Part shown: in pieces, positions 9,624-34,032 of the stretch
Layout of the letters: every line of letters begins with the position of its first letter
How positions within the stretch are numbered: position 1 is the first letter of the stretch
Source: a virus
DNA: 36,301 bases
Reading direction: 5' to 3' (one strand)
Virus record (IMG/VR): IMGVR_UViG_3300042924_006165
Location: 1-36,301 of that record
Program-made: the position numbers and the translations under genes
Notes under the pieces: model-generated
Database searches by the model: none
Told to the model about the DNA's origin: nothing
What the model saw: the letters and a program-made list of their open reading frames with translations, nothing else

Positions 9624-9639
9624 AGTAGCTCTCCTTAAG

Positions 9640-10047: not shown

Positions 10048-10189
10048 TAATAAATTGCCTTGTCTGCTCTGGTGTTGAAGTCATGTCTAATGTTAAACCT
10101 GATTCACCATCTCTTGAAACATCTATAACTGGAGCAGAAACAATTCCTGTTTCGCTTCCAACTGATTCGCATCCGCATTCAATACACAT
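10037..10189 (-). CDS. Small cysteine-start protein (50 aa)
   Basis: The protein begins MCIECGCESVGSETG with three cysteines in a CxxCxC cluster, then an acidic, Thr/Ser-rich stretch ending RQFINGK. It overlaps the stop of the proline-rich gene by one base (TAATG). The N-terminal cluster may bind metal. Not recognised. Confidence 0.55.
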   Translation of the reverse strand: MCIECGCESVGSETGIVSAPVIDVSRDGESGLTLDMTSTPEQTRQFINGK

Positions 10190-10701: not shown

Positions 10702-10800
10702 TTAAGATTTGTAAAATTTTATATAGCAAGATTCACAGAAATATCCGTCTTTTGTTATTCTAGAAGCATTATTTTGACAGTCTTTTGTGCTGCAGGTCAT
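10702..10800 (-). CDS. Small four-cysteine peptide (32 aa)
   Basis: MTCSTKDCQN and YFCESCYIK give a compact four-cysteine zinc-knuckle. The ATG overlaps the stop of the oxygenase-like gene (ATGA), so the two are translationally coupled. Similar tiny zinc peptides recur in this genome. Function unknown. Confidence 0.55.
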   Translation of the reverse strand: MTCSTKDCQNNASRITKDGYFCESCYIKFYKS

Positions 10801-11597: not shown

Positions 11598-11624
11598 GTT
11601 ACCCAATTTTACCATTTAATAGCT

Positions 11625-11667: not shown

Positions 11668-12690
11668 TTACTTAATCCAATTAACCTTTAGCTTAGGAAA
11701 CTTTGCGTTCCACTTTTTAGCCAAAGCGTTGAACTTTGTCTTTAGATCTGCAATAGTCTTTTTTAGGGCTTCGTTCTCTGCCTTTAAAGTTGCTGTTGCT
11801 GAATCTGATGAAGCCTTTGCATCTGCAAGCGCCTTATCTGATGCAATCTTGTCCGCTGCACGAGCCGCTCTTTCTGCTGCCAAAGCTGCGTTAACTACCG
11901 CAAGCTCTGATACAACATCACGTACTACAATTGTAGCGCTTACAGAACCTATTGGTGCTGCTAAGCCTGTTACGGCTGTTGCTACTGTTGCATATGCAAC
12001 TACTGTTACTGAACCAGTAGCAGGCATTGTTACTGTCTGCTCTTTTGTTCCAAGTGTTGCTGTTGCTGAATCAGTTGTTAGTGCTGTTGATAGCGCTGTT
12101 CCAGAGCTTGAAACCAAAGTATTAATTGTGGCTCCACTCTTTAGATTTCCAAATACATCGTATCCAGATACCTTAAGAACTTGTGACGTACCTGCTGCTG
12201 CTGATGATGGAGCAGACAAAGTAATTGAGTTCAAAGCACCTGCGGTACCTTGTACATAATAAACTGTTGTTGTTCCTGCACGAGTAATAGATACCGAACC
12301 TACTGCTGTACTTTTAGTATATACATAAAAGTCTGCCGCTGTTCCAGTTCCTGTTGCAATTGATAGTGTGGATGTTCCAGATGATGCTGTTACTGCTGAA
12401 CCAGTTGCTGCAAGAGCAGGTACAATAGTTGCATTTACTGCAACTGCTGTTACTACTGTTCCAGTGTCTACTGATGTCACAGCAATCTTTAATGCATCTG
12501 CTGCATCTACGCTGTTATCTGCTGGTACTGGTAGTGACACAGGAGTTGTTACTACTGTTCCACCCGTTGCTGCAGTTCCCGCCACTGTTAGCGTGACAGT
12601 TCCAGCGTTAGCGCTAGCTGCTGGCGCTACAAGCATTGTGCTAGTCAGGGCTGCAGCGATGATTAGCGATATTTTTTTAAATGAGTTCAT
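11668..12690 (-). CDS. Secreted S-layer-like protein with C-terminal coiled coil
   Basis: The protein has a clear Sec signal peptide (basic start, hydrophobic core, cleavage near APAASANA). About 230 residues of Ala/Thr/Val/Ser-rich beta sequence follow, reading as Ig-like repeats. A coiled coil (AALAAERAARAADKIASDKA) comes next, and a basic end (KKWNAKFPKLKVNWIK). The composition, richer in Ala and Thr and in GC than neighbouring genes, looks like an actinobacterial surface protein. It could have been acquired from the host to alter or disguise the envelope, or be a virion fibre. It has an AAAGGAG ribosome-binding site, a leader of about 60-80 bases and TATAAT at 12759-12764. Confidence 0.65.
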   Translation of the reverse strand: MNSFKKISLIIAAALTSTMLVAPAASANAGTVTLTVAGTAATGGTVVTTPVSLPVPADNSVDAADALKIAVTSVDTGTVVTAVAVNATIVPALAATGSAVTASSGTSTLSIATGTGTAADFYVYTKSTAVGSVSITRAGTTTVYYVQGTAGALNSITLSAPSSAAAGTSQVLKVSGYDVFGNLKSGATINTLVSSSGTALSTALTTDSATATLGTKEQTVTMPATGSVTVVAYATVATAVTGLAAPIGSVSATIVVRDVVSELAVVNAALAAERAARAADKIASDKALADAKASSDSATATLKAENEALKKTIADLKTKFNALAKKWNAKFPKLKVNWIK

Positions 12691-12758
12691 TTATTTTATT
12701 TCTCCTTTTTTTCCACCCCGTTGTCGGCATGGAATCCTTTACTGTATAGGACATATAT

Positions 12759-12764
12759 ATTATA
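12759..12764 (-). promoter_or_regulatory. Probable -10 box for the secreted protein gene
   Basis: TATAAT lies about 70 bases before the ATG at 12690. A TTGACT at 12786-12791 is 21 bases upstream of it, too far for a standard -35 box. The leader contains a short hairpin (CCATGCC...GGGGTGG) before the AAAGGAG ribosome-binding site. Confidence 0.4.
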
Positions 12765-12804
12765 CCCTATAGATATAAACGTTTAAGTCAACCAAATGTC
12801 GCTT

Positions 12805-12981
12805 TTATTCATCTATGAATTTAACATGAAAGCTGCAGGGATCGTTACCTTCATCCCAGTCAATCATTTCAGCATCCGTAAGTGGTGGCCCCTCATGGGT
12901 ATCACAAAATATTTTAGTCACCCAGTTTTTTTCAAGTCCGTACTCGTACCAGTCAGAAACGTTTTTAAATTTATTACCCAT
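12805..12981 (-). CDS. Small conserved-type actinophage protein (58 aa)
   Basis: The pattern WYEYGLEKNWV, CDTHEGPPLT and WDEGNDPC is one I associate with small proteins of actinobacteriophages, which share a Cys-x2-His and a C-terminal Asp-Pro-Cys and may bind a metal. Its ATG overlaps the stop of the basic peptide upstream by one base (TGATG). The role is unknown. It ends the operon that comes from the SGNH-like gene. Confidence 0.65.
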   Translation of the reverse strand: MGNKFKNVSDWYEYGLEKNWVTKIFCDTHEGPPLTDAEMIDWDEGNDPCSFHVKFIDE

Positions 12982-13067
12982 CAGTATATAAACCTTTCTT
13001 TTTTGTTAAGAGCTTTTTTTATTTTTCTTTTAATTAGCCACAGTTTAATTATTTTAAAAATATTCAC
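12981..13067 (-). CDS. Tiny basic amphipathic peptide (28 aa)
   Basis: A GTG-started frame encodes NIFKIIKLWLIKRKIKKAL and an ending KERFIY. Lysines alternate with hydrophobic residues, giving an amphipathic membrane-seeking helix. The GTG forms a GTGA overlap with the SGNH-like gene stop, and the TGA overlaps the next ATG. This tight coupling on both sides supports real translation. Confidence 0.5.
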   Translation of the reverse strand: MNIFKIIKLWLIKRKIKKALNKKERFIY

Positions 13068-13999
13068 CACTGACCCCACCTTTTTTCTGCTTCTTTTTCA
13101 AATTCAAGAGCCCACCATTCATGAAAAGATCTTCCTTTATGCTTATCTCTTTTTTCCAAAGATAAAGTTTCTTTATTTTTTATAAAAAAGTTTTCTGCGT
13201 CTTCCTCATTCATTTTAAAAACTGATTTGTTTTGACCCATAAAGCATATATTTTCAAGCTCAGCAAGGTCCCAGCTTGAAGCTAAAAGCTTAATGTTTTT
13301 TGAATCACAGTATTTTTCAAAAATTTTCCAAGAAATCATAAAATCCATTAAATCATTTTTTTGATCCTCTATAGAAATTAGACTTTTTTGATTAGAAAAA
13401 ACTGAAACTTTTTCTCTATCTACATATTTTTGGTGGTAATACCAGCCCCCTAAATTGTTTTCTGACCAAAAAAAATTTCTGCCTATGTTTGGCAACAAAA
13501 CAAAATAATGTGTCGGTGTCCCGTACTTTTCTTCGTAAACAAAAAAATCTAAAATGACCTGGTGCCAACCAGAACCAGCCCTACCTAAATTATAAAAATT
13601 TCCAACATCATATTTTTTAGAAAATTTTGTGTGTAAAATTTTTCCCCAAGAATCCTCTATGTTTCCCCCAATGCCCTCTGTTTCCGAGCATCCGTTAAAT
13701 ACTATATGAAATTTAGAAGTTTGATTTTTATTAAAATCATCTGACCTGTACCAATCACTATTGTATTTATAAATTACTGAGCCGTCGTCTTTAAAGTTAT
13801 CGGGAAGACGGGCTTCGGTTGGTGCAACCGTAAATTCCCTGTTTCCTACATTCATGCTTTTGTACGGATCATTTAAAGACCAAGTTTGATCAAATTCATT
13901 TCTAAATAACGAATTCAAAAGTGAAGATTGAAGTCCTTTATTATCTAGGTTTTCTAAAAAATAAGAAGGATTTATTTTTGAGTATTTTTTATTTATCAT
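13064..13999 (-). CDS. SGNH/GDSL-hydrolase-like protein
   Basis: Residues 98-170 follow the SGNH order: strand HIVFNGCSETEG with a candidate nucleophile Ser105, then NLGRAGSG (137-144) as the block carrying the oxyanion Gly, then FVLLPNIGRN. A C-terminal His is available at HEWWALEF. The family hydrolyses esters or removes acetyl groups from sugars and lipids. A relative at 19876-20625 lacks the serine. It overlaps the methyltransferase upstream by 4 bases, which hints that both act on the same molecule, perhaps a surface glycan. Assignment is moderate because the motifs are diverged. Confidence 0.55.
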   Translation of the reverse strand: MINKKYSKINPSYFLENLDNKGLQSSLLNSLFRNEFDQTWSLNDPYKSMNVGNREFTVAPTEARLPDNFKDDGSVIYKYNSDWYRSDDFNKNQTSKFHIVFNGCSETEGIGGNIEDSWGKILHTKFSKKYDVGNFYNLGRAGSGWHQVILDFFVYEEKYGTPTHYFVLLPNIGRNFFWSENNLGGWYYHQKYVDREKVSVFSNQKSLISIEDQKNDLMDFMISWKIFEKYCDSKNIKLLASSWDLAELENICFMGQNKSVFKMNEEDAENFFIKNKETLSLEKRDKHKGRSFHEWWALEFEKEAEKRWGQW

Positions 14000-14700
14000 A
14001 GATAATTTTCTTTTCTTAAGTATATATCATAAAATCCTAATGGGTGCAAAGCAATGCCATCTACTGACCATTCTTTGTTTAAGAATAAAAACTCATTTAC
14101 TGATTGATAGGTTCCATATTTGCCGTCTTCAATAATTCCATCATATATTAAATAATCATTTAATCCTATTATACCACCTGGCTTAACAAGATTTTTAACA
14201 ATTTCTAAAAGTTCTTGAATTTTTTTTCTATCGTTAACTATATCAATATATATATAATCAAACTTTTTATCTATTTCTTTAGATGTTCTTAAGGCATCTC
14301 CAGCAATTACATGAACATTTTTATATTTTGAAAATTCTTTTTTTATAAAACTTTCATGACTGTCTTTGTCATAAGTTTGAATATGTTTAGGAAAGCACTG
14401 GCAACTACCAAATTTTCTCTCAGACCAACAAAGCTGATCTTGATCATATGTATCTAGTAAGTATATAGAAGAAGGGCTTAAAGTTTCTGCAATTATTTTT
14501 GAATAATAACCCCAGGCAACACCAATTTCCATATAATCCAAACCTTGTGGCAAAGTTTTAATATATGTTTCTCTATTTGAAAAAAGCTTTGATTTATTAA
14601 GCTGGGATTGATCTATTAGTACTGCAGACTCAATTTGTTCTTGGGGTATTGGGTAGTGTTGAACTCCCTTAATGTTAGATGGCCCAGGAACAAAAGGCAT
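13996..14700 (-). CDS. SAM-dependent methyltransferase (class I)
   Basis: Motif I is LDYMEIGVAWGYYSK, the acidic strand end is IYLLDTYDQD, FDYIYIDIVNDRKK corresponds to motif IV and LVKPGGIIGLNDYLI follows. This matches the order in the paralogue at 7413-8135. A cysteine-containing insert (FGSCQCFPKH) is distinctive. Small-molecule or sugar O-methylation is the likely role. The gene lies between a helical small protein and the SGNH-like gene with 1-4 base overlaps, giving an operon that appears to run from the subtilase promoter at 16075. Confidence 0.7.
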   Translation of the reverse strand: MPFVPGPSNIKGVQHYPIPQEQIESAVLIDQSQLNKSKLFSNRETYIKTLPQGLDYMEIGVAWGYYSKIIAETLSPSSIYLLDTYDQDQLCWSERKFGSCQCFPKHIQTYDKDSHESFIKKEFSKYKNVHVIAGDALRTSKEIDKKFDYIYIDIVNDRKKIQELLEIVKNLVKPGGIIGLNDYLIYDGIIEDGKYGTYQSVNEFLFLNKEWSVDGIALHPLGFYDIYLRKENYL

Positions 14701-18335: not shown

Positions 18336-18549
18336 AATCTTTCTTGATCACCCACATTCCATTTTTAGATACAGGAACTTTATCAACAATACCCCAAGAG
18401 TCATTAAGGTACATTCCTTTTTTACTGCCCCACCCGTTAATATTTTTTTTCCAAATATTTACGGTATAGTTGTTCCAAAAACCTTTATTAGATCTAGAAT
18501 TAAATTTTTTAAAAAAAACATCAATTCCTTTTTCGTTTAAAAATAACAT
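18316..18549 (-). CDS. Small hypothetical protein (77 aa)
   Basis: The start is placed at the ATG at 18549, which forms TAATG with the stop of the oxygenase gene; a longer frame would run back into that gene. The protein is rich in Asn, Lys, Trp and Gly (WGSKKGMYLNDSWGIV), probably beta-rich. It is not recognised. It links the oxygenase/SGNH genes to WhiB in one operon. Confidence 0.55.
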   Translation of the reverse strand: MLFLNEKGIDVFFKKFNSRSNKGFWNNYTVNIWKKNINGWGSKKGMYLNDSWGIVDKVPVSKNGMWVIKKDYVKYFK

Positions 18550-19145
18550 TATGCTCTTTCTATTTCCCACATTTTTAAGTAATAGTTAGACTTAATTTTC
18601 ATGTTAGTTTTATGAGAATCCTTAATGTCATCTGAATCTGGATCGCATAGGTGTGCGAATATCATGTCTAAATATTCTCCTTTAGCAAAAGTTCTTTTTT
18701 CTCTCCAATGAACTTCATGAGTTCCAGAAAAAATTAGCGCTTGATTATCTTGAAGTATATATTTTTCTTTTTCAACAACAATTGGCCAGTCCCCGACAAT
18801 AAATTTTTTAAGCTGCACGTCTAACGTTAAGACCTCTTTATCAAACGCTACGTCATAGTGTGGACTTAAAGATGGGTTAACTCCCGTGTCTAAGGTATAT
18901 CTACAAAATTGAATTCCTAATATTTTTAAATTTTTACCAGAATTTTCAAATGCTTTTTTTTCTACAGTGTCCCATAAATCGGAATCCCCAGATTCTCTCA
19001 TATCAAAAGCGGGAATATAATACAGCTGCTGACCTACTCTTTTATTATTAACAATTTTTTCAATAGGGCATGAGTTAACATAATCATAAATTTTATTTAT
19101 TTGAGATTCAGAAAAAAAATCATTTATAATTCTATTATTTTTCAT
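18549..19145 (-). CDS. Fe(II)/2OG-oxygenase-like protein (HxD...HWR type)
   Basis: The iron-ligand pattern is SPHYDVAF (His96, Asp98) and EVHWREK (His146), with Arg148 as a candidate 2OG-binding residue. LTLDVQL, GDWPIVVEK and KGEYLDMIFAHL align with the paralogue at 10797-11597. The length of 198 aa suits a minimal beta-helix oxygenase. It overlaps the P4H-type oxygenase gene by one base, so two different oxygenases are made together. The target could be a protein, a nucleobase or a small molecule. Confidence 0.6.
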   Translation of the reverse strand: MKNNRIINDFFSESQINKIYDYVNSCPIEKIVNNKRVGQQLYYIPAFDMRESGDSDLWDTVEKKAFENSGKNLKILGIQFCRYTLDTGVNPSLSPHYDVAFDKEVLTLDVQLKKFIVGDWPIVVEKEKYILQDNQALIFSGTHEVHWREKRTFAKGEYLDMIFAHLCDPDSDDIKDSHKTNMKIKSNYYLKMWEIERA

Positions 19146-22295: not shown

Positions 22296-24932
22296 TTATA
22301 CCTTCCTTCTATATGCTGTGCCAAGAACTATCTGACCAGCTATTATTGTTACAACTACTATATCTTCTGCTTTTTCACGTTCTGGTATAGACATGTCGGC
22401 ACCTATATTAATCAGTGCCTTGCCTAATTCACATTTTTGCTCTTCCGTTAATCCTTCAATTGCTTCATCTGGGTTGAAACAGCTGGCTATTGCATTTGCT
22501 AAAGCTGCTGGACTTTCTAATACAAGCAGTGCAGATGCTACCTCTGCTTGAATTACTACGGGGTTTCCGTTTACATCTTCTCTTACCTCTACTGGAATTG
22601 TAGGTGGAAGATCACGATATTCAAGTCCCGCCGATTCTATGTTTGCAGCAGTTACTGGTGCTCCCTCTGCTGATGACACTAATACGTCTGCAACTAAATC
22701 TTTTTCTGCTAAAGTAAACTTACCGTCTTCGCTTAATGCCTCTGATAAATTAACAACTTCTGCAGTTGTTATTTCTCCATCTGCAGAAAGCATTTCTGTA
22801 ATAAATTCTGCTTCTGCTTCTGTTAATCCGCCCTCTGATAAAGATTCAGATACTTCAGCAGCAATCTCTGCAGATACTTCTCCGCCTTCAGCAATTGCTT
22901 CTAGTACGGCAGAGATTTCAGATGCATCTAAACTGCTATCGCTAATTAAATCAGTAACAACTTCTTGAATATCTTCTACAGAAAGATTTGCACCGCTTTC
23001 GGATATCTCTTCAATAGAAACTTCACTTTCTTCAAATACAGCCTCTGATTCTTCTGCAGGAGTATCAACTGGCTCTGTATCTACAGGCTCTGTATCAATT
23101 GGTTCTGTGTCTACAGGTTCTGTGTCTACAGGTTCTGTGTCTACAGGTTCTGTGTCTACAGGTTCTGTGTCTACAGGTTCTGTGTCTACAGGTTCTGTGT
23201 CTACAGGAGTTGTATCAACTGGCTCTGTATATACGGGTTCTGTATCAACTGGAGTTGTGTCTATTGAGGAACTATTGCCACCAGTAGTTAAATTGGAGCC
23301 TTGTGGTGCGGGTACAGAAATAACAGTCTCGGTATATTGACTTACTGGTCCAGACCAATTAGCAACTCTAACTGTATATGTAGCGCCTTCTGTTAAACCA
23401 GTTAATTGAATAGATGCTGGTGCACCATTTGTATTATATGTTCCCCCAGCATAAGGATTTTCTGCTGTTGGATCATCTGTTACTACTTGATAAAACCAAG
23501 TGTTTGCTGTGTATCCTGCTGGTAACTCAGGTGTAATTGTTACAGTGGTGCCAGCAATAATTGGTTCCGCAAGTACTGGAGCGGGAGTAGGAATGTTATT
23601 ATTGATGGCAGATGTTAATTGACCTGCTTTAGTGTTTAGTGTTGATTGCAAAGAAGTATTTGTTGATACCGCTAAGTTTACGGTATTAGTTAAAGATGCT
23701 GTGTTGATTGCATTTACATTAGAAGTGTTTGTTGTATTTTGTGCAACAACTGGAGAAAGGCTTTGGTTTAGTTGAGTAATTGTTGCGTTTGCTGCATCTA
23801 CTGCTGCCTGAACTGTTGAAGTGTTTGGGTCTACATATGGAGTAAATGCTGAACCCTGACCTATTTGTCCAGAAAATCCAGTTCCAGAATTTGTATCTGT
23901 AATTGGTGTGATAGCGCCATTTGTTGTTTCTCTATAATTAAATCTAGCACCGTTTGGTATTGGACCTACAGCAGTTACATTTGCCATCCATGCACCGTCA
24001 TTTGGATTAACATCAGCATTAAATCTAATTTGAACCATTTGTGTAGAAGCATCTTGTTGCGGGAAAGGTCTTAAGTCCCAAGCAACATCTAGGCTTGTTC
24101 CAGTAGTTGAATATGTAATTCCAGTTCCTGTACTCCAAGTAGTCCAATCCCAGCCAGCAATAGATACAGAAGGTGCTCCTGGTGTATCCCAATATACATG
24201 CCCCTCATTATTTCCAAATGTTATTGTTGCATTTGATCCAACAAACACATTGTTATAAACAGTGCCACCCATTTGCATACCGAATGGAAGGTTCATTTGA
24301 ACACCAGCATCGTCTACTCCAGCCAAAACGTTAACAGTTGTTCCAATAGTGGCTTGTAAATTATTGACTGCTGTTTGAGCAGCATCAATAGCAAGGTTTG
24401 CCTGAGTTAATTCTGTTTGAGCAGTTGCCTGTGCTGTAGAGGCTTCTGTTTTTGCAGTGACCACTTCAGATATTGCTGTCTGAGCTTCTGTTATTTGTGT
24501 TGTTATATTATTTATAGCGGTAGTTGCAGTAGTTACTGTAGCCTTTGCATCTTGAACTATTTGAGAACTTTGATCTATTGGGGTAGCAGATAAATCAACA
24601 TTGTTAATAGTATTAATAGCGGTTTGAACATTACTTATTTCTGTATTAGCCAAAGATATTTTTGATGCTACCTCTGCCACGATAGGTTGAGCTTGAGAAT
24701 ATTCGGTTTGTGCTTCTGTTACCTCCACTAAGGCTGTTTCAGTGGCTGTAATGGCTTGCTGAACCTCTGTAGTGGCGGTTGCAAGTGCTTCATTAACTGC
24801 TTGTTGCGCTGGGCTTACTACTACCTGTTCTTGTCCGCCTTGCTCTGTTGCCCAAGCATAACTTGGTCCAATAAAAAATAGCCAACCTGTAACAAAAAGG
24901 CTAGCTAAAAAGTATTTTAACTTTCTACTCAA
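22296..24932 (-). CDS. Large secreted repeat-rich surface or fibre protein (878 aa)
   Basis: In order: a signal peptide (KLKYFLASLFVTGWLFFI to about residue 30); a long Ala/Thr/Val coiled coil (about 35-205); a beta domain (about 210-365) with DLRPFPQ and Trp-rich strands, like adhesion or NIDO-type modules; a second coiled coil; an FN3-like segment (about 450-540); a PVDTE repeat tract (about 560-635); acidic helical repeats; and a C-terminal hydrophobic helix ending YRRKV that may anchor it. The TTG at 24932 is chosen because GGAG lies 6 bases upstream; a TTG at 24944 lacks this. It may be a phage-encoded host-surface protein or a virion fibre. Its signal peptide and tail anchor favour the cell surface. 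Confidence 0.6.
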   Translation of the reverse strand: MSRKLKYFLASLFVTGWLFFIGPSYAWATEQGGQEQVVVSPAQQAVNEALATATTEVQQAITATETALVEVTEAQTEYSQAQPIVAEVASKISLANTEISNVQTAINTINNVDLSATPIDQSSQIVQDAKATVTTATTAINNITTQITEAQTAISEVVTAKTEASTAQATAQTELTQANLAIDAAQTAVNNLQATIGTTVNVLAGVDDAGVQMNLPFGMQMGGTVYNNVFVGSNATITFGNNEGHVYWDTPGAPSVSIAGWDWTTWSTGTGITYSTTGTSLDVAWDLRPFPQQDASTQMVQIRFNADVNPNDGAWMANVTAVGPIPNGARFNYRETTNGAITPITDTNSGTGFSGQIGQGSAFTPYVDPNTSTVQAAVDAANATITQLNQSLSPVVAQNTTNTSNVNAINTASLTNTVNLAVSTNTSLQSTLNTKAGQLTSAINNNIPTPAPVLAEPIIAGTTVTITPELPAGYTANTWFYQVVTDDPTAENPYAGGTYNTNGAPASIQLTGLTEGATYTVRVANWSGPVSQYTETVISVPAPQGSNLTTGGNSSSIDTTPVDTEPVYTEPVDTTPVDTEPVDTEPVDTEPVDTEPVDTEPVDTEPVDTEPIDTEPVDTEPVDTPAEESEAVFEESEVSIEEISESGANLSVEDIQEVVTDLISDSSLDASEISAVLEAIAEGGEVSAEIAAEVSESLSEGGLTEAEAEFITEMLSADGEITTAEVVNLSEALSEDGKFTLAEKDLVADVLVSSAEGAPVTAANIESAGLEYRDLPPTIPVEVREDVNGNPVVIQAEVASALLVLESPAALANAIASCFNPDEAIEGLTEEQKCELGKALINIGADMSIPEREKAEDIVVVTIIAGQIVLGTAYRRKV
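23071..23205 (-). repeat. 15-base tandem repeat encoding PVDTE
   Basis: Seven perfect copies of a 15-base unit lie at 23101-23205 (plus-strand unit GGTTCTGTGTCTACA), with two diverged copies at 23071-23100 and more imperfect ones after 23205. The unit keeps frame and encodes Pro-Val-Asp-Thr-Glu. Perfect copies beside diverged ones suggest recent slippage expansion. The open frames seen on the plus strand here are shadows of it. Confidence 0.85.
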
Positions 24933-24943
24933 TTGGATCTCCA

Positions 24944-24979
24944 ATATAACAAAATTTTTGTTATATAGAAATTATATCA
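24944..24979 (-). promoter_or_regulatory. Extended -10 promoter with inverted repeat at the start site
   Basis: TGATATAAT (24971-24979) is followed within about 5 bases by a perfect inverted repeat at 24944-24966 (ATATAACAAAA-T-TTTTGTTATAT, 11-base arms). The repeat covers the predicted start site and leader of the large surface protein gene, just before its GGAG. It could be a repressor operator or a 5' hairpin hiding the ribosome-binding site. Confidence 0.55.
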
Positions 24980-25723: not shown

Positions 25724-26140
25724 TTACTTTATTTTAATTGTTTTTGGCTTTTTCTCTTCAGGCACAGTACGATCTACATTAATATTTAACATACCGTCCT
25801 TTAGATCTGCCCCAGTCACTTCCATGTACTCACCAAGAGCAAATGAGCGTGTGAACTTACGGCTTGCAATACCCTTGTGTACCACTTCTGCTTCAGCGAC
25901 TTCTGTAATCTCACCCTTAATGATAAGAGTTCCATTATCTACTGACACATCGATGTCTTCTTTGCCAAAACCTGCTACAGCAATAGAAATACGATATGTG
26001 TCTTCATCTAGCTTAAGAAGATCATATGGAGGATATGACTGTGAGTTGACTTTATGTGCATTGTTTAGACGGCTTAACTCTCTGTTAAAGCCAATAAAAA
26101 AAGGATCATTGAAAAGATCCATAGCGAATTGTGTTACCAT
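25724..26140 (-). CDS. Hsp20/alpha-crystallin small heat-shock protein
   Basis: The alpha-crystallin domain runs from about residue 38 to 130: PYDLLKLDEDTYRISIAVAG, then VHKGIASRKFTRSFALGEYM and ADLKDGMLNINVDRTVPEE, followed by KPKTIKIK in place of the usual C-terminal I-x-I. The N-terminal NDPFFIGFNREL is the IbpA-type amphipathic helix. It holds unfolding proteins during stress. Small Hsp20s are common in cyanophages and other aquatic phages, where a role in virion assembly or host stress is suspected. The leader of about 50 bases has AAAGGGG and a possible short hairpin (see findings). Confidence 0.9.
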   Translation of the reverse strand: MVTQFAMDLFNDPFFIGFNRELSRLNNAHKVNSQSYPPYDLLKLDEDTYRISIAVAGFGKEDIDVSVDNGTLIIKGEITEVAEAEVVHKGIASRKFTRSFALGEYMEVTGADLKDGMLNINVDRTVPEEKKPKTIKIK

Positions 26141-26221: not shown

Positions 26222-27058
26222 CTACCAGTCAGACATTTCTTCCATAAGCTTCAAAAGGCTGGATATATTTTTTTGGCTGGTTACTATCATAAAGTCATCT
26301 ATCCCATATTTTTTAGATATATCTCTAATTTCCTGTTTAACCTCTTCCATGTTTCCACGTATTAAATGCTCTCTCTTTTCTAAAACATAAGGTTTTTCAT
26401 ATTTATTAGGGGTCCACTCTTGATAATGATATGCTATATCTTGATCAAGTTCTTCTTTTGTTTCCCTAATTAAAGGGTCAATAATTAATACTACCTTAGT
26501 ATTTTTTAATTTATTAATTGATTCTTTTAAAAATGATTCTTCTAACCCACTATCATTGATAATAGCATAGTCTGTCCATTTATTAGCCAAGTCAATTGTC
26601 ATTGGAGAATTTGCAATTGTATAAGAAATTGGCGCTTGGTCACCCATCTTATTAAAAAATTTATCTGCCCACTTATCTGCAAGCTCTATTCTTTTTTCGA
26701 CAGTATTTATTAAAGACTCGTCAAAATTATACATATCAATTACTTCTTTTTGTTCATCTTCAAGCATTTTTCCAGCAACTAAATTAAATGTTACCCTATT
26801 TTTATAGTGAACATTCATTGTATTAAAAAATCTAATTGCATATTCTGGACTCATTGTGTAAGCCCTAAACGCCATCATAAACTTAAGGTGTTTTGATACT
26901 CTTATCATGCTTTGCAAAAAGGGAACATAGTCTGTTGAAATTATAGAATATGTTAATAAAACAGAATAAGCTTTTGCTCTTTCTAAATCTCTTGCCATTT
27001 GAACTAATTCAGTTTCTGAATCTCCAAAGTCAAACCTGTGCATCCAATGAAACTTCAT
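26222..27058 (-). CDS. Luciferase-like flavin monooxygenase
   Basis: The protein follows the bacterial luciferase-like (LLM) TIM barrel. MKFHWM is the first strand, ARDLERAKAYSVLLT matches the second strand region, and FLQSMIRVSKHLKFMMAFRA fits SsuD-type alkanesulfonate monooxygenases. NRVTFNLVAG corresponds to the FMN-binding NLVTG segment. The length of 278 aa is shorter than SsuD at about 380, with the insertion region reduced. It would use FMNH2 and oxygen, and no flavin reductase is seen here. It follows the P4H-type oxygenase gene by 5 bases, in an operon headed by a TipAS protein. The substrate is unknown. Confidence 0.75.
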   Translation of the reverse strand: MKFHWMHRFDFGDSETELVQMARDLERAKAYSVLLTYSIISTDYVPFLQSMIRVSKHLKFMMAFRAYTMSPEYAIRFFNTMNVHYKNRVTFNLVAGKMLEDEQKEVIDMYNFDESLINTVEKRIELADKWADKFFNKMGDQAPISYTIANSPMTIDLANKWTDYAIINDSGLEESFLKESINKLKNTKVVLIIDPLIRETKEELDQDIAYHYQEWTPNKYEKPYVLEKREHLIRGNMEEVKQEIRDISKKYGIDDFMIVTSQKNISSLLKLMEEMSDW

Positions 27059-27063
27059 AGTCT

Positions 27064-27747
27064 TTATTTCTTATTAAATTCTGAAAATAGGCTCCATTGA
27101 GAAATAGTGTATCTTGTTCCAGAAGTAACTTCTGATACTCCGTGGACATAATGTGTACTTCCTGGAAAAAGAATTAACATATTTTTTTTAGGCCTAATTA
27201 CGTGATTAAACTGTGGAAAATACAACTCCCCTCCTTCGTAATCATCATTTAAATATCCAAGAACCGATAAATGACCGCTCCATAAGTATGGGTATTTTTC
27301 TATTTGAGATTCATAAGTATCGTTTTCATAATCTGGCTCATCTATGTCTAGTATGTCTGTGTGTGGATCAATATAAGTTCCAGTTGGATGAACTATATAC
27401 AAAAAAGGACGATCTTGAATAAATTTCATTTTGTATTCTGAAATTACTGTATTGAGCAGTTTTTTTCTCATTATACTGGTGAACAACTTTTCTTCTTCAG
27501 AAGGCGAATGTTCTTCTAAAGTATCTATTGAGTAAGAATGGTTTACTCCTTCTTTTATCTTATACTTTTTTATAATTGATAATGCAGTTTCAGATTCTTT
27601 ATCTGTTAAATAGTTTTCAATTACCTTTATGTTATTAATACCTGTTCCTATTTGTTTTGTAATGTTATCTGTATTAGCAATCGCAATTATGGTTTCATTG
27701 CTTTTTGCCATTTTAGCGGCTAAACCCGCATTAAGTGGTCCGCTCAT
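27064..27747 (-). CDS. Prolyl-4-hydroxylase-type Fe(II)/2OG oxygenase
   Basis: The core carries IDPHTDILD (His129, Asp131), LSVLGYLNDDYEGGELYFPQ, and LILFPGSTHYVHGVSEVTSG, with the distal His most likely His202 and Arg212 in TRYT. The layout is the same as gene 19145-19879, so they are related. The length is 227 aa with an Ala/Gly-rich N-terminus. It overlaps the TipAS-domain gene by 4 bases and is followed by the luciferase-like monooxygenase, so two oxygen-using enzymes are made together. Confidence 0.8.
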   Translation of the reverse strand: MSGPLNAGLAAKMAKSNETIIAIANTDNITKQIGTGINNIKVIENYLTDKESETALSIIKKYKIKEGVNHSYSIDTLEEHSPSEEEKLFTSIMRKKLLNTVISEYKMKFIQDRPFLYIVHPTGTYIDPHTDILDIDEPDYENDTYESQIEKYPYLWSGHLSVLGYLNDDYEGGELYFPQFNHVIRPKKNMLILFPGSTHYVHGVSEVTSGTRYTISQWSLFSEFNKK

Positions 27748-28202
27748 ATTTTATTTGTCGACAAACTATCCAAGCCATCTTTTCTTTTGTGAGAATAAGC
27801 TTTAATTAATTTTAAAAGGTATTGGCTAAGCCCTGGCGCTTGCTTTTCAAAAAATAAAGCATACTTTTTATTTACTTGAGTTTCTAAGCTAAGCTTTAAT
27901 AGATATTCTTCATCTATCGGAAAAAACCATTTAACATAATGATCAGCAAACAAATCAAATCCATGCTCTGCCCTAGGATCTTCTACTGGAATATTGCTAT
28001 TAATGCACTCTGCAAGGTATGAGTTTAATTCGTGGGCTTCTTCAACCATTGAGTCCCAGTCTTTTCTGGTGTAATCTGCAATTCTTTCCTTGGCTAACAA
28101 AACCAATCTGTCATCTGGAAAATTGCCAGACCATTCTTTCCAAAGCATGGCGCATGTAACGTCTTCAGCTTGCTTGATCCACTTACCTCTATGTATTAGC
28201 AT
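27744..28202 (-). CDS. Stand-alone TipAS-like antibiotic-binding domain protein
   Basis: The protein matches the helical TipAS domain found at the C-terminus of MerR-type TipA regulators, which bind thiopeptide antibiotics. WDSMVEEAHELNSYLAECI with IPVEDPRAEHGFDLFADHY corresponds to the middle, and ALFFEKQAPGLSQYLLKLI to the last helices. It has no MerR DNA-binding domain, and 152 aa fits TipAS alone. A cysteine (LAECI) is present; whether it equals the drug-binding Cys is uncertain. It could sequester an antibiotic or bind another peptide ligand. The ATG lies 8 bases after an extended -10 box. It heads an operon with two oxygenases. Confidence 0.6.
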   Translation of the reverse strand: MLIHRGKWIKQAEDVTCAMLWKEWSGNFPDDRLVLLAKERIADYTRKDWDSMVEEAHELNSYLAECINSNIPVEDPRAEHGFDLFADHYVKWFFPIDEEYLLKLSLETQVNKKYALFFEKQAPGLSQYLLKLIKAYSHKRKDGLDSLSTNKI

Positions 28203-28210
28203 ATATACAC

Positions 28211-28219
28211 ATTATACCA
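28211..28219 (-). promoter_or_regulatory. Extended -10 promoter of the TipAS-oxygenase operon
   Basis: TGGTATAAT on the minus strand begins right after the carbamoyltransferase stop and ends 8 bases before the ATG at 28202, predicting a nearly leaderless mRNA. No clear -35 box is seen. Confidence 0.6.
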
Positions 28220-29641
28220 TTATGAAATTATTTGATGTTGGTAATAATTTTCCCACTCAAGTATGTCTTTTTCGTCATTAATTAAAGGCTGGCCCTTAAC
28301 ATTTAAACTGGTGTTTAACAAAACTGGGACTCCAGTTAAATCAAACCATTGTTTTAGCACTTCATACAGTCCTGGGTGCTGATTTTTATTAATTGTTTGA
28401 ACTCTCGAAGTACCGTCAGCATGTACAACAGATGGTATTGTGTCTGGCTTTAAACATTTAACGGCGTACTGCATATAAGGAGAGCTAAAATTAATATCAA
28501 ACCATTTGCTTGCATGCTCTTCCATTACGACTGGTGCGAAGGGCCTAAATGATTCTCTTTTTTTTATTAAATTTACTTTGTTTTTTATTTCTGGATCTCT
28601 TGGGTCTGCGAGTATGCTTCTGTTTCCCAAAGCCCTTGGACCAAACTCTGCTCTTCCAGAGGCAACTGCAACTATTTTGTTTTCAGCTAAACCTTTAATT
28701 ATTTTATTGACTGGGTACTCCCCGCCCAAATCGTATCCTAGGTATGGAGTCTGCCAATCTAAATGCTTTCCATAAAGAGCCGCTGCTGCACCTAAAGAGC
28801 TTCCAGAATCTCCTGGGTTGGGCATTATCCACACATCATTAAATATTTCCCACAACTTAGTATTTGCTGAGCAGTTTAGCGCACAGCCTCCCATAAAAAC
28901 TAAATTTTTCTTTTTTGTTAAACTTTTTGCATACCGCATAAAGTCTATAAGTCTTTGTTCGTAAACTACCTGAACTGCTGCCGCAATATCAAACTTGTCC
29001 TGCTCTGAAACCCATCCCCAATCAGTAATTCCTTTGTGAAAATTGTATTTTTGTTTATCATATCTAGGAAAATAATTATCTACCTGCTTATAATACTTTG
29101 TCCAATCTCCGTAGGCCGCCATCCCCATCATAATATACTCTTCTTGATTTGGCATAAGCCCGACCAACTGGGTAAAGGCTGAGTAAAATAATCCAAAGCT
29201 TACTGGGTAATTTTGTTTAAATTTTAATTTTATTTTTTCACCTTCTCCTACCCAAATAGTAGAAGTATTATATTCACCAATTGAATCTAAAACTACAATT
29301 GCTGCGTCAAAAAAGCTACTTGTATAATATCCAGCACATGCGTGTGAGTAATGATGGCTAAATGATTTTCTTGGGATACCTTCTATATTAAACCTTGGCT
29401 TCCAGTCCCCTACACCACCCTTTAAAAATAGCCTAGAGGCCTTTAGAAAGGGTTTCTCGTAGTAAGCTATAGCATCAGGTGCACCATATGACAAAGCATC
29501 ATTAACTAAACTATTATTGATATACCAATCATTCTTTTGCTTGCTATATCTTTCTGCGTGTCCCGCAAAAATAATTTTTCCATTTTCTATTAAAGAAACA
29601 GAAGCATCGTGTGAGGTTTCGTTAACCCCAAGAATTATCAT
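28220..29641 (-). CDS. Carbamoyltransferase (NodU/CmcH/TobZ family)
   Basis: These enzymes carbamoylate hydroxyl groups of sugars or antibiotics using carbamoyl phosphate and ATP. The N-terminal Kae1-like domain has MIILGVNETSHDASV, the metal-binding SHHYSHACAGYY (residues 95-106) and VVLDSIGEYNTS with Asp119. MGGCALNCSANTKLW and GDSGSSLGAAA are conserved. The C-terminal domain has GRAEFGPRALGNRSILADPR and RESFRPFAPVV. The ATG at 29641 overlaps the previous gene by 20 bases. At 473 aa it is near but shorter than TobZ. Cyanophages and other aquatic phages carry relatives. The target may be a phage or host glycan or a small molecule. Confidence 0.85.
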   Translation of the reverse strand: MIILGVNETSHDASVSLIENGKIIFAGHAERYSKQKNDWYINNSLVNDALSYGAPDAIAYYEKPFLKASRLFLKGGVGDWKPRFNIEGIPRKSFSHHYSHACAGYYTSSFFDAAIVVLDSIGEYNTSTIWVGEGEKIKLKFKQNYPVSFGLFYSAFTQLVGLMPNQEEYIMMGMAAYGDWTKYYKQVDNYFPRYDKQKYNFHKGITDWGWVSEQDKFDIAAAVQVVYEQRLIDFMRYAKSLTKKKNLVFMGGCALNCSANTKLWEIFNDVWIMPNPGDSGSSLGAAAALYGKHLDWQTPYLGYDLGGEYPVNKIIKGLAENKIVAVASGRAEFGPRALGNRSILADPRDPEIKNKVNLIKKRESFRPFAPVVMEEHASKWFDINFSSPYMQYAVKCLKPDTIPSVVHADGTSRVQTINKNQHPGLYEVLKQWFDLTGVPVLLNTSLNVKGQPLINDEKDILEWENYYQHQIIS

Positions 29642-29951
29642 CTTTAGAATCTCTTTCTGGAACAATTCCGTAGTGTTTTTTTAAACGCCTTAAGCCTTCT
29701 GGGGTTGCGCTAAAAGTAGCTTCTAGATTTTCGTTATAGGAAACAGAAATTAAATTTTCTTTGTATAGCCCAATTAATGTTTCATCAATGTAATCTGTAT
29801 GAGCTTTCCATAATTCTGGAGCAATGTCTTTAGCAATTTCATTTACTTTATAAATGGCTTCGCCATTTTTTTCTACTCCAACAAAATCTATTGCACCAAT
29901 TTCCACATAGTGTTTAAACAAAGCAGAGTCATCTTCTTCAAACAGATTCAT
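29622..29951 (-). CDS. Hypothetical protein, possibly winged-helix-like (109 aa)
   Basis: An acidic N-terminus (EEDDSALFKHY) is followed by alternating helices and strands, including IDETLIGLYKENLISVSYNE and FSATPEGLRRLKKHYG, which read like a winged-helix hairpin (a TxxG-xxxL segment). No clear family. It overlaps both neighbours in the terminase operon by 14-20 bases. A DNA-binding or packaging-accessory role is possible. Confidence 0.55.
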   Translation of the reverse strand: MNLFEEDDSALFKHYVEIGAIDFVGVEKNGEAIYKVNEIAKDIAPELWKAHTDYIDETLIGLYKENLISVSYNENLEATFSATPEGLRRLKKHYGIVPERDSKDDNSWG

Positions 29952-30177
29952 TGCTTTTTTCTATTTCAACTAAAGATTGTACATATTCCGAAAAATGCTT
30001 TCTAATACCTCCTGTGGGTCTTGATCCAATGCTGGTCCAGATACGGGAATATTCTTTTATATTGTAATAAGTTGTTGGACAAACCTTTACACCATTGTAG
30101 TCTTTAAGAACAATAGGAAGCGGAACATGCTTTCCACAACATATACATTCTTTTGCTTTTTCTTGATACATGCTCAT
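29938..30177 (-). CDS. Small cysteine-motif protein after terminase (79 aa)
   Basis: KECICCGKHVPLP and VKVCPTTYYNI supply at least four cysteines, with further aromatic and basic residues (SRIWTSIGSRPTGG). It resembles a small zinc-binding HNH-lacking domain. The ATG overlaps the terminase stop by 4 bases. Function unknown, perhaps linked to packaging. Confidence 0.6.
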   Translation of the reverse strand: MSMYQEKAKECICCGKHVPLPIVLKDYNGVKVCPTTYYNIKEYSRIWTSIGSRPTGGIRKHFSEYVQSLVEIEKSNESV

Positions 30178-31973
30178 ATTATCATCATCCTATCCATTGC
30201 TTCCTTGAGCTCTTGTGGTATTCGGGGAGCTCTTATCATATTTTGAACGTACTCTTCTTCTTTTGTAACTCCAAAATCATTATCATAACTCATTGACTCA
30301 TAGTTATGTATTTTTATTTCTTGATTTGTATCAAACCTTGTATGAGATATAGCATTAAATATTGAACCACAAACAGCATCCGCTAAATCTTTTGATCCTT
30401 TTCTTGGATGGTCTACCTTATCCCTCATAATTCTTAGCTGTAGCAATTCATCTATAAGCAAAGGAATGTGTGGTCCTTTTAATCTTTCTTCTAGAACCAC
30501 CATTGCCATATCGTCGTAATGTTTTTTAGCAACAGATAACAACTCTGTGTTTATTCCATACTGCTTTAATTGCTGCATCATGTCATGTGAATTCCATCTA
30601 TCAAAAGTGCATAGCCTTATTTTAAATCCTTTAGTTTTTAAAGACAATATGTAATCCTTAACCTCAGTAAAGTCTACTGATTTATCTGGAGTTGGCGTCC
30701 AAAATCTTACGGCATCTACTTCAACTATTGGTGCAGGCTGAGAATATGTATCTGTTACTTTTATATTAACCCATTTTTGAACGTGAGACATTGCAACAGC
30801 ACAATGATCGTGCTTTTGAGCAAGGTCAACATGAATAAAATATTCTTTATCTGGATCTGGTGCAAACCAATCTTCAAATCTCCCAAATTGATCTACAGCT
30901 ACTCCTAAATTACTAAATGATTTTTCAATTTTTTCTCTTGATTTAAAAAATGCATCTATTGCTTCTGAAGGCATGCATGCAAATCTTCCAAGAGCATCTG
31001 GTGCGTTCTTGTAAAAAGCTATTTTGAAATCCTCTATACTTCTTGTAGGATTAACTTCCCATGTTGGCCTTCGAAGTGCGTACATTCCTGGGTACTTATA
31101 AGAAATAATATTATCTTCTTCCCACTCTATATCAAATTCATTACCCGCAGTTCCATCTGGTAGATCTTTTTCTAATTTAAATCTATGAGATCTAACTACA
31201 ACTTCTTTGTCTGCCACAACATCATCATATCTTTGCTGGATGTAGTCATTTTTATATCTTGGAAAAGATAGCAAAATTACCTTGCCATAGTCTGGAAATC
31301 TAGAGTCTACGGAAGCACGATACATTTCATAAATAAGGCTTCCTGTTTTTGCCTGCTCATGCCCAGTAGTATTTTCAACACTAAATCCAGATATCTCATC
31401 TAAGATAACTACTATTACGTTATAGCCTTCCCAAGCCTCACGCTCAGAGTGTCCAGAGTGTACGGTTATATTTTTATTAAATTTTATTTCAGAAGCTTTT
31501 TCAGAGTATTTTCCAACAAACCATGGGGACTTGTCAATTCTAGTTCTAAACCCTTTAAAGAATACGTTGCTTGCTTGCTGGGCGTTAATGGCAATATTGA
31601 TAATGTCTATTGAATCGCCAGGAGGTTTTCCGTAATAAGACGCTGGGTCTTTTAAGCAAAGCAATAGATATACAATATACGAAACTGCAATTGTTGAGCA
31701 GTAGTCTTTTCCAGATCCTTTTCCTAGCTGAGCAACTACCTCGTTGGCAGTTTGCTTAAACATTCTATGTCCTTCTTCTTCTCCAAAAAGTTTTATTAAA
31801 GTAGACTCTTTATACACCTGTGAGCTTTTTTCAATTAATGTGTATTGATATTCTGAAAGTTCTGGTAGACCTAGATATTTTTCATCAGTTACAAAATCTC
31901 TTAGCGATACTGGCTTTTCGTCAAACTCTTCGCCATCAAGCATGTCAATGATATCAGAAAAATCAAATGACAT
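30174..31973 (-). CDS. terL: Terminase large subunit
   Basis: The protein packages DNA into capsids using an ATPase motor and a nuclease. Walker A is QLGKGSGKD (82-90), Walker B is VIVVILDEIS (Asp192, Glu193). The RNase-H-like nuclease has FIHVDLAQKHDH (Asp383), LCTFDRWNSHD (Asp458) and GSKDLADAVCG (Asp532). The length of 599 aa is normal. The gene overlaps the small-subunit candidate by 11 bases. Structural genes such as portal and capsid are not visible here and probably lie outside the window. Confidence 0.9.
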   Translation of the reverse strand: MSFDFSDIIDMLDGEEFDEKPVSLRDFVTDEKYLGLPELSEYQYTLIEKSSQVYKESTLIKLFGEEEGHRMFKQTANEVVAQLGKGSGKDYCSTIAVSYIVYLLLCLKDPASYYGKPPGDSIDIINIAINAQQASNVFFKGFRTRIDKSPWFVGKYSEKASEIKFNKNITVHSGHSEREAWEGYNVIVVILDEISGFSVENTTGHEQAKTGSLIYEMYRASVDSRFPDYGKVILLSFPRYKNDYIQQRYDDVVADKEVVVRSHRFKLEKDLPDGTAGNEFDIEWEEDNIISYKYPGMYALRRPTWEVNPTRSIEDFKIAFYKNAPDALGRFACMPSEAIDAFFKSREKIEKSFSNLGVAVDQFGRFEDWFAPDPDKEYFIHVDLAQKHDHCAVAMSHVQKWVNIKVTDTYSQPAPIVEVDAVRFWTPTPDKSVDFTEVKDYILSLKTKGFKIRLCTFDRWNSHDMMQQLKQYGINTELLSVAKKHYDDMAMVVLEERLKGPHIPLLIDELLQLRIMRDKVDHPRKGSKDLADAVCGSIFNAISHTRFDTNQEIKIHNYESMSYDNDFGVTKEEEYVQNMIRAPRIPQELKEAMDRMMII

Positions 31974-33205: not shown

Positions 33206-33314
33206 CTATATCTTCCTTAAACATATTTTTAATATATCTATCTTCTGCATCTGCAATTCCTTGTCCAACATTAGATGCCCAGTTCTTTACGTTTTTCAGT
33301 AGCCGAAATAGCAT
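33183..33314 (-). CDS. Small overlapping gene (43 aa)
   Basis: The frame starts at an ATG inside the 3' end of the kinase-fusion gene and overlaps it by 44 bases, then runs past its stop and overlaps the DUF2061 start. The product contains KNVKNWASNVGQGIADAEDR and an acidic end, an amphipathic helix followed by charged residues. The small NWASNVGQGIADAEDRYI-type protein looks like known phage small genes. Function unknown. Confidence 0.5.
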   Translation of the reverse strand: MLFRLLKNVKNWASNVGQGIADAEDRYIKNMFKEDIDDESNQD

Positions 33315-34032
33315 GAATCTCTGCCCCCAAATCTACTTGTTCAATCTTATATCCTACGTCACGACCATAAACAATATTAGTAATGTTAGGAAGTCTTAGC
33401 ACTAATGCGCCATCCATAAATTTATCTTTAGCAATGTACTCTTTTACCTGATCAAACTTAAGTGGATCTTTCTCACTTGTATTGTATGTATTTCGTACTC
33501 CAAGTAATACTTGGTTAGTTCGTTTACCAGCTTCTTTATATAAAGCGTGATGCCCCTCATGCCATGGTTGATAGCGACCAAGCATAAGTGTTGTTGGTGC
33601 AGACCAATCATGCAAGCCATGTTTTTCAATTATTTGAGATGCTTTTTCTTCAGCATTTAGTTCATGATTAGAAAAATATGCGTTGGCAATTTCAGGGCGC
33701 TCAAACATTTTATTTGTATCTTCAAAACGACTTTGCGTAATAGTATCCATAAATATTAAAATATTTGGCTTACCGAATGCTTTACGAGTTTCCGCTGTTG
33801 GGCAAACAAAGTCTACAATAACTGGAGCAACTCCTTGATTGGCAATAAGTCTTGCCATAGCCCCCATACGTCTTGCTTGTTCTATGCGATCTTCTGGAGT
33901 AAATCCTAAGTCAGAATTAACAGTAGCTCTTACCTCATCTGCATTAAGGTGAATAGCATTAATTCTTTCTTTTAAAGATTTAGCTAATTCTGTTTTACCA
34001 GAACCTGGAAGTCCTATAATTTGAATAATCAT
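33271..34032 (-). CDS. APS-kinase-like / nucleotidyltransferase fusion
   Basis: Residues 1-130 form a P-loop kinase domain like adenylylsulfate kinase: Walker A GLPGSGKT (7-14), HLNADEVRATVN, and ARLIANQGVAPVIVDFVCP. Residues 145-253 form a cytidylyltransferase/NMN-adenylyltransferase-like domain with GRYQPWHEGHHAL (HxGH at 158-161) and ISATEKRKEL, the counterpart of the family's ISxTxxR. Such fusions occur in cyanophages and other aquatic phages with an uncertain role. APS kinase makes PAPS, the donor used by the sulfotransferase at 1640-2260, so a link is possible; NAD or CDP-sugar chemistry is an alternative. It overlaps the RuvC-like gene by 4 bases. Confidence 0.75.
   Translation of the reverse strand: MIIQIIGLPGSGKTELAKSLKERINAIHLNADEVRATVNSDLGFTPEDRIEQARRMGAMARLIANQGVAPVIVDFVCPTAETRKAFGKPNILIFMDTITQSRFEDTNKMFERPEIANAYFSNHELNAEEKASQIIEKHGLHDWSAPTTLMLGRYQPWHEGHHALYKEAGKRTNQVLLGVRNTYNTSEKDPLKFDQVKEYIAKDKFMDGALVLRLPNITNIVYGRDVGYKIEQVDLGAEIHAISATEKRKELGI

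Follow-up and report, generated by a model that had tools for sequence, protein, structure and literature searches.

A mosaic cassette of putative tailoring genes beside the terminase of actinophage-like viruses

Nol/NodU-like carbamoyltransferases and 2-oxoglutarate (2OG)-Fe(II) oxygenases are already known as accessory enzymes of phages: in T4-like cyanophages, the passages covered of PMC3037559 table both as sporadic host-like phage genes and read the oxygenases in a 2OG/nitrogen model, with neither luciferase-like monooxygenase (LLM) nor TipAS genes among their subjects. A cyanophage carbamoyltransferase is assigned to pyrimidine synthesis in the part covered of PMC9146016, a role that would not fit the NodU/TobZ type described below, and the viral use of prolyl 4-hydroxylase (P4H) is called cryptic in the sections covered of PMC9301287. 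The stretch of DNA analyzed here (the window) comprises 36,301 bases of a virus (IMG/VR virus record IMGVR_UViG_3300042924_006165, positions 1-36,301) and holds both cyanophage families in a cassette of four consecutive genes, which encode a carbamoyltransferase (CTase), a TipAS-domain protein, a P4H-type oxygenase, and an LLM-fold protein. This cassette is one state of a mosaic set beside the terminase in actinophage-like viruses, not a fixed pathway, and we propose, with a probability of roughly 0.4, that it is an accessory set for chemically tailoring a structure of the virion or of a surface. New here are the LLM family and TipAS, neither of which our searches found in catalogued phages (no match to either in 50,697 phage records, at E 1e-3 for the LLM family, and none to the LLM family in PHROGs). 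The four genes are as follows.

28220..29641, minus strand: CTase, an O-carbamoyltransferase of the CmcH/NodU/TobZ type, 473 amino acids (PF16861 and PF02543, phrog_1601)
27744..28202, minus strand: stand-alone TipAS-domain protein, 152 amino acids (PF07739; Foldseek match 2mbz)
27064..27747, minus strand: P4H-type 2OG-Fe(II) oxygenase, 227 amino acids (PF13640, phrog_61, PDB prolyl 4-hydroxylases)
26222..27058, minus strand: LLM-fold flavin/F420-type oxidoreductase, 278 amino acids (AlphaFold with Foldseek, hhalign)

The coordinates, order, and families of these genes, first proposed in an earlier reading of the letters alone (the original prediction), are borne out by Pfam and, for LLM, by a structure model. 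The CTase starts at the ATG at 29641, within an open reading frame (ORF) opening at 29665, and its Kae1-like N-terminal and YrdC-like C-terminal domains both exceed the Pfam cut-off (Carbam_trans_N 4e-38, Carbam_trans_C 9e-56); it matches phrog_1601 (Nol-like carbamoyltransferase) at 2.8e-105 and, among PDB profiles, 9s2t at 3.1e-59 as well as GdmN and TobZ. Residues H96 and H100 of its HxxxH, presumably the metal-site motif of the Kae1-like domain, are invariant in 10/10 members, and carbamoyl transfer to a hydroxyl is the activity predicted from the family. In the P4H-type protein, which matches 2OG-FeII_Oxy_3 (PF13640) at 7e-11, the iron/2OG residues are intact: the HTD, the distal H (YVHG), and the R (GTRYT) are kept in the window and the 11 relatives aligned. 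As to a collagen-like substrate, the listed proteins of the window and of its closest long relative, G001, contain no convincing GXY tract and one short GXY run. PF07739 is the sole Pfam domain of the TipAS protein (3.8e-10; 40.7 bits against a cut-off of 23.8), whose AlphaFold model is modest (mean predicted local distance difference test score, pLDDT, 69), with TipAS 2mbz as its best Foldseek match (E 0.0039, probability 1.00, query TM 0.62) and no match at E <= 0.001. The LLM protein scores 19.3 bits against Bac_luciferase, below the cut-off of 27.9; the assignment was kept because its AlphaFold model (mean pLDDT 85, built from 24 window and IMG/VR sequences) matches SsuD (1m41, top Foldseek match, E 2.6e-13, query TM 0.76), with MsuD and the F420-dependent KvPepI also matched and a value of 97.4% by hhalign against E. 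coli SsuD. The model predicts a luciferase-like TIM-barrel fold, and the reaction is likewise a prediction. Its S151, which aligns with a serine of the SsuD GGSS stretch, a segment that we take to have a role in cofactor binding, is invariant in 24/24.

To follow the cassette beyond the window, we read gene order in related phage contigs. A search with the single sequence found window-type TipAS at 14 IMG/VR loci, and one with an alignment found it at 21; all scans combined place it on 23 distinct contigs, with three remote relatives in addition. Where all four positions are readable, the order CTase-TipAS-P4H-LLM is kept in 19 of 20 IMG/VR contigs, so that the synteny expected in the original prediction holds in close relatives, which are not independent. 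The CTase precedes TipAS in 22/22 contigs in which this can be seen; TipAS overlaps P4H in all 22 with a visible junction, by 4 bases in 21 and by 8 in locus L130; and LLM comes next after P4H in 20 of the 21 contigs long enough to show it. The exception to the four-gene order is again L130, which runs CTase-TipAS-P4H with no LLM and has SNase next among its labelled genes. The terminase large-subunit gene (terL) on TipAS-bearing loci, where present, is 98-100% identical to that of the window (78% in L130), and in at least 6 of the 23 contigs TipAS is itself identical; since several contigs are thus near-identical to the window, the independent evidence for synteny is smaller than these counts. 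The genes that frame the cassette are the following.

30174..31973, minus strand: terL (phrog_9), about 61-62% identical to Streptomyces phages such as Francob; one border of the cassette
29622..29951, minus strand: p29622, a small conserved gene preceding the CTase in the window and lying on its other side in relatives with terL of 79-82%
25724..26140, minus strand: Hsp20 gene (PF00011), downstream of LLM; the other border

A second clade (terL 79-82%) usually has the order terL-p29938-(SGNH-like)-CTase-p29622-(SGNH-like)-LLM-Hsp20, with TipAS and P4H absent from the locus. No match to p29622 was found in Pfam or PHROG; Hsp20, at 45-100% identity across syntenic loci, has been exchanged between clades. 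At another 62 CTase loci, which partly fall on contigs already considered, the neighbors are mostly different (SGNH-like, P4H-type, AhpC-AhpD, QOR). The CTase has at least 560 confirmed IMG/VR stretches and matches 143 phage records, all below 60% identity, of which 98 belong to Synechococcus phages; its domain PF02543 is present in 10 of the 13 long contigs G001-G013. The LLM family comprises 94 confirmed IMG/VR stretches (80 kept), seen here in phage contigs only. On L139 and L147, the gene of a TipAS-like protein of 26% identity (22.0 bits against the Pfam cut-off of 23.8) shares one base with the zinc-dehydrogenase-type QOR gene that follows it; together with the TipAS-P4H overlap, this couples a TipAS-like protein to an oxidoreductase in two arrangements. 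A fixed four-gene system is not supported, since TipAS-P4H is missing at terL 79-82%, LLM is missing in L130, and the CTase neighbors vary.

All four genes are under purifying selection (dN/dS, the ratio of nonsynonymous to synonymous divergence, is 0.03-0.31 in the computable comparisons and 0.04-0.10 for the CTase, with identical pairs and two pairs with saturated synonymous divergence, dS, left out). Their histories differ. Between the window and L027, dS is 0.40 for LLM, 2.79 for the CTase, and 1.63 for terL, and in L008 and L010 it is 0.81-0.89 for P4H and 0.10-0.14 for TipAS, which points to an exchange of P4H by itself among the closest relatives; dS differing gene by gene indicates that the cassette genes were exchanged one by one. 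Of the two observations that the original prediction named as counting against it, absent synteny is contradicted by the order conserved in close relatives, and independent origins find support in the differing gene histories.

Gene neighborhoods were counted on 140 loci from 139 contigs (L042 and L126 lie on one) using our own ORF calls, with 24 loci repeating a contig, non-IMG/VR loci, and unlabelled ORFs shorter than 90 amino acids left out. A gene was labelled P4H or SGNH on the basis of a BLAST comparison with genes of the window or with representatives; two window genes labelled P4H and read as 2OG-like, 10797-11615 and 18549-19145, lack any Pfam match. Of 89 LLM genes, 57 have a 2OG-type or SGNH-like gene as a direct neighbor, whereas reordering the genes of each locus at random yields 22.8 +/- 3.9 (maximum 34); the CTase adjoins an SGNH-like gene in 51/95, against 15.9 +/- 3.4. 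None of six control genes of our choosing shows an excess beyond one standard deviation (observed, with expected in brackets: HSP20 7/46 (11.7), terL 9/55 (16.0), SNase 3/56 (14.7), CHAP 14/47 (12.1), whiB 5/36 (7.1), pept 0/30 (5.7)). Relatedness makes the contigs non-independent, so that these figures should not be read as probabilities; much of this relatedness applies to the controls too.

The LLM association recurs in several settings. A module P4H(285)-LLM(265)-SGNH-like(219)-P4H(181) is present on 12 contigs, some near-identical, with differing flanks and records of up to 205 kilobases (kb); L082 has the order P450-LLM-SGNH-like-P4H, in which a cytochrome P450 gene lies directly before LLM with a 4-base overlap; and outside the cassette LLM adjoins p11668, the gene of an exported-type protein, in further contigs of actinophage type. 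On seven loci (L084 at 9129-10130, L064, L070, L071, L074, L087, and L088) a radical SAM/SPASM gene follows LLM, PF04055 and PF13186 having been scanned in L084 only. Redox-defense families also occur near LLM in relatives: KatG-like peroxidase, AhpC, CMD/AhpD-like, and glutathione peroxidase (L071 12497-14560; L079 10005-11238; L081 15063-15524). Recent capture of LLM from a known bacterial gene found little support, a first genome scan giving 0 relatives and a second three partial matches of 21-30%; peptide patterns limit both scans.

The longest contigs of this actinophage-like lineage reach 110-118 kb. The closest long relative, G001 (110,973 bases; CTase 96%, TipAS 74%), carries a second tailoring cassette between a laminin-G gene (50952-52652) and fn3 (60047-61363) and Mtd_N (61396-63099) genes, the last with a tropism-determinant domain; from these domains, the three may be tail-fiber genes. 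This second cassette holds an SDR gene, two P4H-like genes (one with PF13640 at 2e-14, the other without a Pfam match), a glycosyltransferase-like gene with no Pfam match, two genes 2OG-like by eye, a subthreshold DUF6065 gene, and others; a similar cassette in L137 includes one gene with a subthreshold PF11397 match. PF11397, which we take to be the family of the Skp1 hydroxyproline GlcNAc-transferase, is encoded in 7/19 records and on L139 directly follows the CTase (1.6e-21). Oxygenases of PF13640 number 1-13 per contig in 18/18 long phage contigs. Two side observations concern these relatives: cytochrome P450 (PF00067) is present in 4/19 records (G001 71450-72892, or L177:11450-12889, and L082 6757-8004; E 9e-74 and 9e-63), and recA has a large P4H-type gene as its neighbor both in G001 (12656-14561; PF13640 3.5e-11, PF00154 1.4e-37) and in the other LLM-bearing group (the L055/L059/L069 loci).

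Within the window cassette, P4H overlaps TipAS by 4 bases and LLM starts 5 bases past the P4H end. The original prediction placed TipAS, P4H, and LLM in one operon under a promoter touching the CTase stop, where the following element is found.

28211..28219, minus strand: extended -10 promoter-like element TGGTATAAT, directly after the CTase stop codon (28220-28222) and 8 bases before the TipAS ATG (6-8 over the regions read)

This element is kept in 11/11 upstream regions read (the window and 10 loci), including L130 with its otherwise diverged flank. Elements like it stand ahead of several further genes of the window, in which TGRTAHAAT is counted 15 times, whereas shuffles give 5.97 +/- 2.08. 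A sigma-70 consensus scan listed no site at 28211-28219, and no Shine-Dalgarno-like sequence lies between TGGTATAAT and the TipAS ATG. A promoter here for TipAS-P4H-LLM is therefore plausible, with the conserved element in its favor and the sigma-70 scan against it, and the layout suggests that the TipAS transcript is probably leaderless or nearly so. Elsewhere in the window, a divergent TGRTAHAAT pair (7385-7393, minus strand; 7398-7406, plus strand) lies between genes 6778-7377 and 7413-8135, which encode an Asp/Asn-hydroxylase-type protein and a CmcI-like methyltransferase.

We propose that the four genes, sited between the terminase and a large exported-protein gene, encode tailoring of a surface or virion structure. 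The CTase would place a carbamoyl group on a hydroxyl; P4H would hydroxylate a side group of a protein or glycan; LLM, as a flavin- or F420-dependent oxidoreductase, may act on the same kind of substrate; and TipAS, co-translated with P4H, could be a partner protein that binds a ligand or substrate, as opposed to trapping drugs covalently. Along with methyltransferase, sulfotransferase-like, and SGNH-like genes elsewhere, the set might diversify the chemistry of tail fibers, of exported proteins, or of glycans on the host surface, one conceivable use being decoys against phages that attempt superinfection. The exported-type protein in question (882 amino acids, 22296-24944, downstream of the cassette) has a signal-peptide-like start, Pro-Val-Asp-Thr-Glu (PVDTE) repeats, and an extensin match below threshold; the repeats differ among relatives (Ala/Glu/Arg-rich in L139, for example), and that this protein is the substrate is a guess. 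More tentatively, an undescribed oxidative tailoring system may be common to actinophage-like viruses and another group of large phage contigs; it would produce or attach a natural-product-like decoration of surface molecules, whether of the phage or of its host, its parts being a phage-specific LLM, P4H-type oxygenases, SGNH-like esterases or acyltransferases, and sometimes cytochrome P450 and TipAS. The recurring module ties phage 2OG oxygenases to a flavin-type family, to SGNH-like genes and, in one relative, to a putative tail-fiber region, and is a concrete target for virion and surface proteomics.

Several observations weigh against surface or virion tailoring. The CTase adjoins a 2OG-type gene in 7/95 cases against 11.2 +/- 2.8 shuffled, and with no enrichment the two enzymes, CTase and P4H, may have separate targets; the neighbor counts as a whole are phylogenetically non-independent and built on labels that we assigned. 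The SGNH-like label rests on motifs: among 24 members there is one weak PF19040 and one weak GDSL match, and a PDB match, GDSL 4rw0, stands at E 0.11. The consensus of these 24 does show blocks I (GCSxTxG/GDSH), II, and V (DxxH), which we take as family marks of SGNH hydrolases, and a G[DCN]S-type motif is present in 41 of the 60 members inspected, of 72 dereplicated. PF11397 has no match in G001, PF00535 has none in the 13 actinophage-type contigs G001-G013, no glycosyltransferase was recognized beside the window cassette among the window genes scanned, and PF02543 is missing from the five long contigs that bear the P4H-LLM module.

Were the locus an insertion hotspot, the four genes could be unlinked passengers with unrelated roles (carbamoylation, oxygen-dependent hydroxylation, redox defense). 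Such a reading accommodates the turnover of gene content, the discordant dS of LLM and the CTase toward L027, the separate exchange of P4H, the AhpC-like gene directly after the CTase in 8/95, and the many redox genes around, from the window catalase to the peroxidase, AhpC, CMD/AhpD-like, and glutathione peroxidase genes of relatives; against it stand the TipAS-P4H overlap in 22/22 contigs, the frequency with which LLM adjoins a 2OG or SGNH-like gene, well beyond the control in several settings, and the one shared promoter-like element, and we consider it unlikely, if far from negligible. The proposal that the set acts as one phage system retains its tailoring context, close-relative synteny, purifying selection, and promoter-like element, but not a fixed membership of four genes.

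The cassette might otherwise modify or disarm a host metabolite or environmental antibiotic, with TipAS as a drug-binding sink and P4H, LLM, and the CTase as inactivating enzymes. The TipAS fold is the thiopeptide-binding fold (AlbA is a further weak match, E 2.1), the PDB relatives of the CTase are antibiotic tailoring enzymes (decarbamoylnovobiocin carbamoyltransferase, GdmN, TobZ), and the LLM model matches KvPepI. In a weak sequence alignment (E 0.08), however, both 1ny9 cysteines in the aligned region, one of which we assume to be the covalent thiopeptide site, face I and K in the window TipAS, which disfavors thiopeptide capture through the known cysteine; of the window's own cysteines, C66 is kept in neither L130 nor L139, and C17 is kept in L130 but not in L139. 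Moreover, TipAS was seen here on the 23 contigs and in three remote relatives, whereas the CTase and LLM persist without it. We therefore rate small-molecule chemistry as rather improbable; of the undescribed system originally envisaged, which was to modify a small molecule or a virion or host glycan or to disarm a host metabolite, the tailoring context stands and the drug-disarming part is weakened by the missing cysteine.

Organosulfur scavenging, with LLM as an SsuD-like sulfonate monooxygenase and the 2OG oxygenase as its taurine-dioxygenase-like partner, draws on SsuD and MsuD as the nearest solved folds and sequences to LLM. The presumed catalytic residues of SsuD, C54, R226, and H228 (55, 227, and 229 counting the start Met), align with S41, I192, and D194 of LLM, which disfavors SsuD-type sulfonate chemistry, and the oxygenase, a PF13640 match, hits no family of taurine dioxygenases, making this reading very improbable. 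As 2OG oxygenases of the TET/JBP superfamily hydroxylate bases in some phages, DNA base hypermodification, in which the oxygenase would hydroxylate a base that the CTase and others decorate, was also weighed; the weak Tet_JBP scores of P4H-type genes, 22.1 bits in L082 and 16.7 in G001 against a cut-off of 34.9, and the P4H-type gene beside recA in G001 and the other LLM-bearing group are consistent with it, but no match to PF00145 (C5 DNA methylase) or PF00303 (thymidylate synthase/hydroxymethylase) was found in 18/18 related phage contigs, which may be fragments, and this argues against the usual routes, disfavors C5-methyl or hydroxymethyl-pyrimidine modification, and leaves the reading scarcely credible.

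The remaining genes of the window supply the setting. Most lie on the minus strand, and GC is 0.29-0.40 in 2-kb windows. Because terL is about 62% identical to Streptomyces phages, a likeness that spans its whole length, and a WhiB gene is present (PF02467 1.7e-11), the host is likely an actinobacterium. Of the sulfotransferase, two methyltransferases, and further oxygenases that the original prediction placed elsewhere in the window, two genes with a methyltransferase domain, one gene of the Asp/Asn-hydroxylase type, and one more 2OG-FeII_Oxy_3 gene exceed Pfam cut-offs, and the sulfotransferase falls short (Sulfotransfer_3, 20.2 bits against 27). A QOR dehydrogenase gene and the Asp/Asn-hydroxylase-type 2OG gene (5867-7377) share one base at 6778, another oxygenase-oxidoreductase pair, and a catalase gene lies at 8343-9623 (3e-86). 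The gene at 33271-34032, conserved in relatives, has an APS-kinase/AAA-like first part (PF01583 1.6e-15, residues 2-85) and a second part with no Pfam match that is nucleotidyltransferase-like by eye.

Literature searches, with subscription journals mostly outside their reach, returned no title on phage TipAS and nothing on carbamoyltransferase with hypermodification, actinophage with prolyl 4-hydroxylase, or carbamoyltransferases in relation to glycans and tail fibers; off-topic matches were all that came back for luciferase-like monooxygenases combined with carbamoyltransferases and phages and for P450 combined with bacteriophages and luciferase, and phage with Skp1 and hydroxyproline gave a match on chloroviruses only. 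The parts covered of PMC10202952, a study in which phages infecting Nanopelagicales were isolated, and of PMC6802176 make no mention of carbamoyltransferase, hydroxylase, oxygenase, or catalase, nor do those of PMC10914622 of hydroxylase, oxygenase, or carbamoyltransferase.

Set against described systems, the window shares its terL likeness and the Cas4-RuvC-terminase order with Francob-type Streptomyces phages (Francob presumably belonging to cluster BE), whereas in Francob terL is followed by small genes and tRNA genes, and its whole record has no match to PF13640, PF02543, PF00067, or PF07739. The window TipAS shares PF07739 and a fold match with TipAS, AlbA, and SkgA and differs in being a stand-alone phage gene without a MerR part and in having no cysteine at the aligned 1ny9 positions. 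By its model, LLM has the same fold as SsuD, MsuD, and KvPepI (Foldseek E 2.6e-13 to about 1e-11), at no more than 18% identity in the 50 structural alignments listed and with 278 amino acids against 381 in SsuD. The CTase, finally, shares both Carbam_trans domains with the antibiotic O-carbamoyltransferases 9s2t, GdmN, and TobZ (profile E 3.1e-59 to 1.8e-41) and, at 473 amino acids, is shorter than their PDB chains of 576-702.

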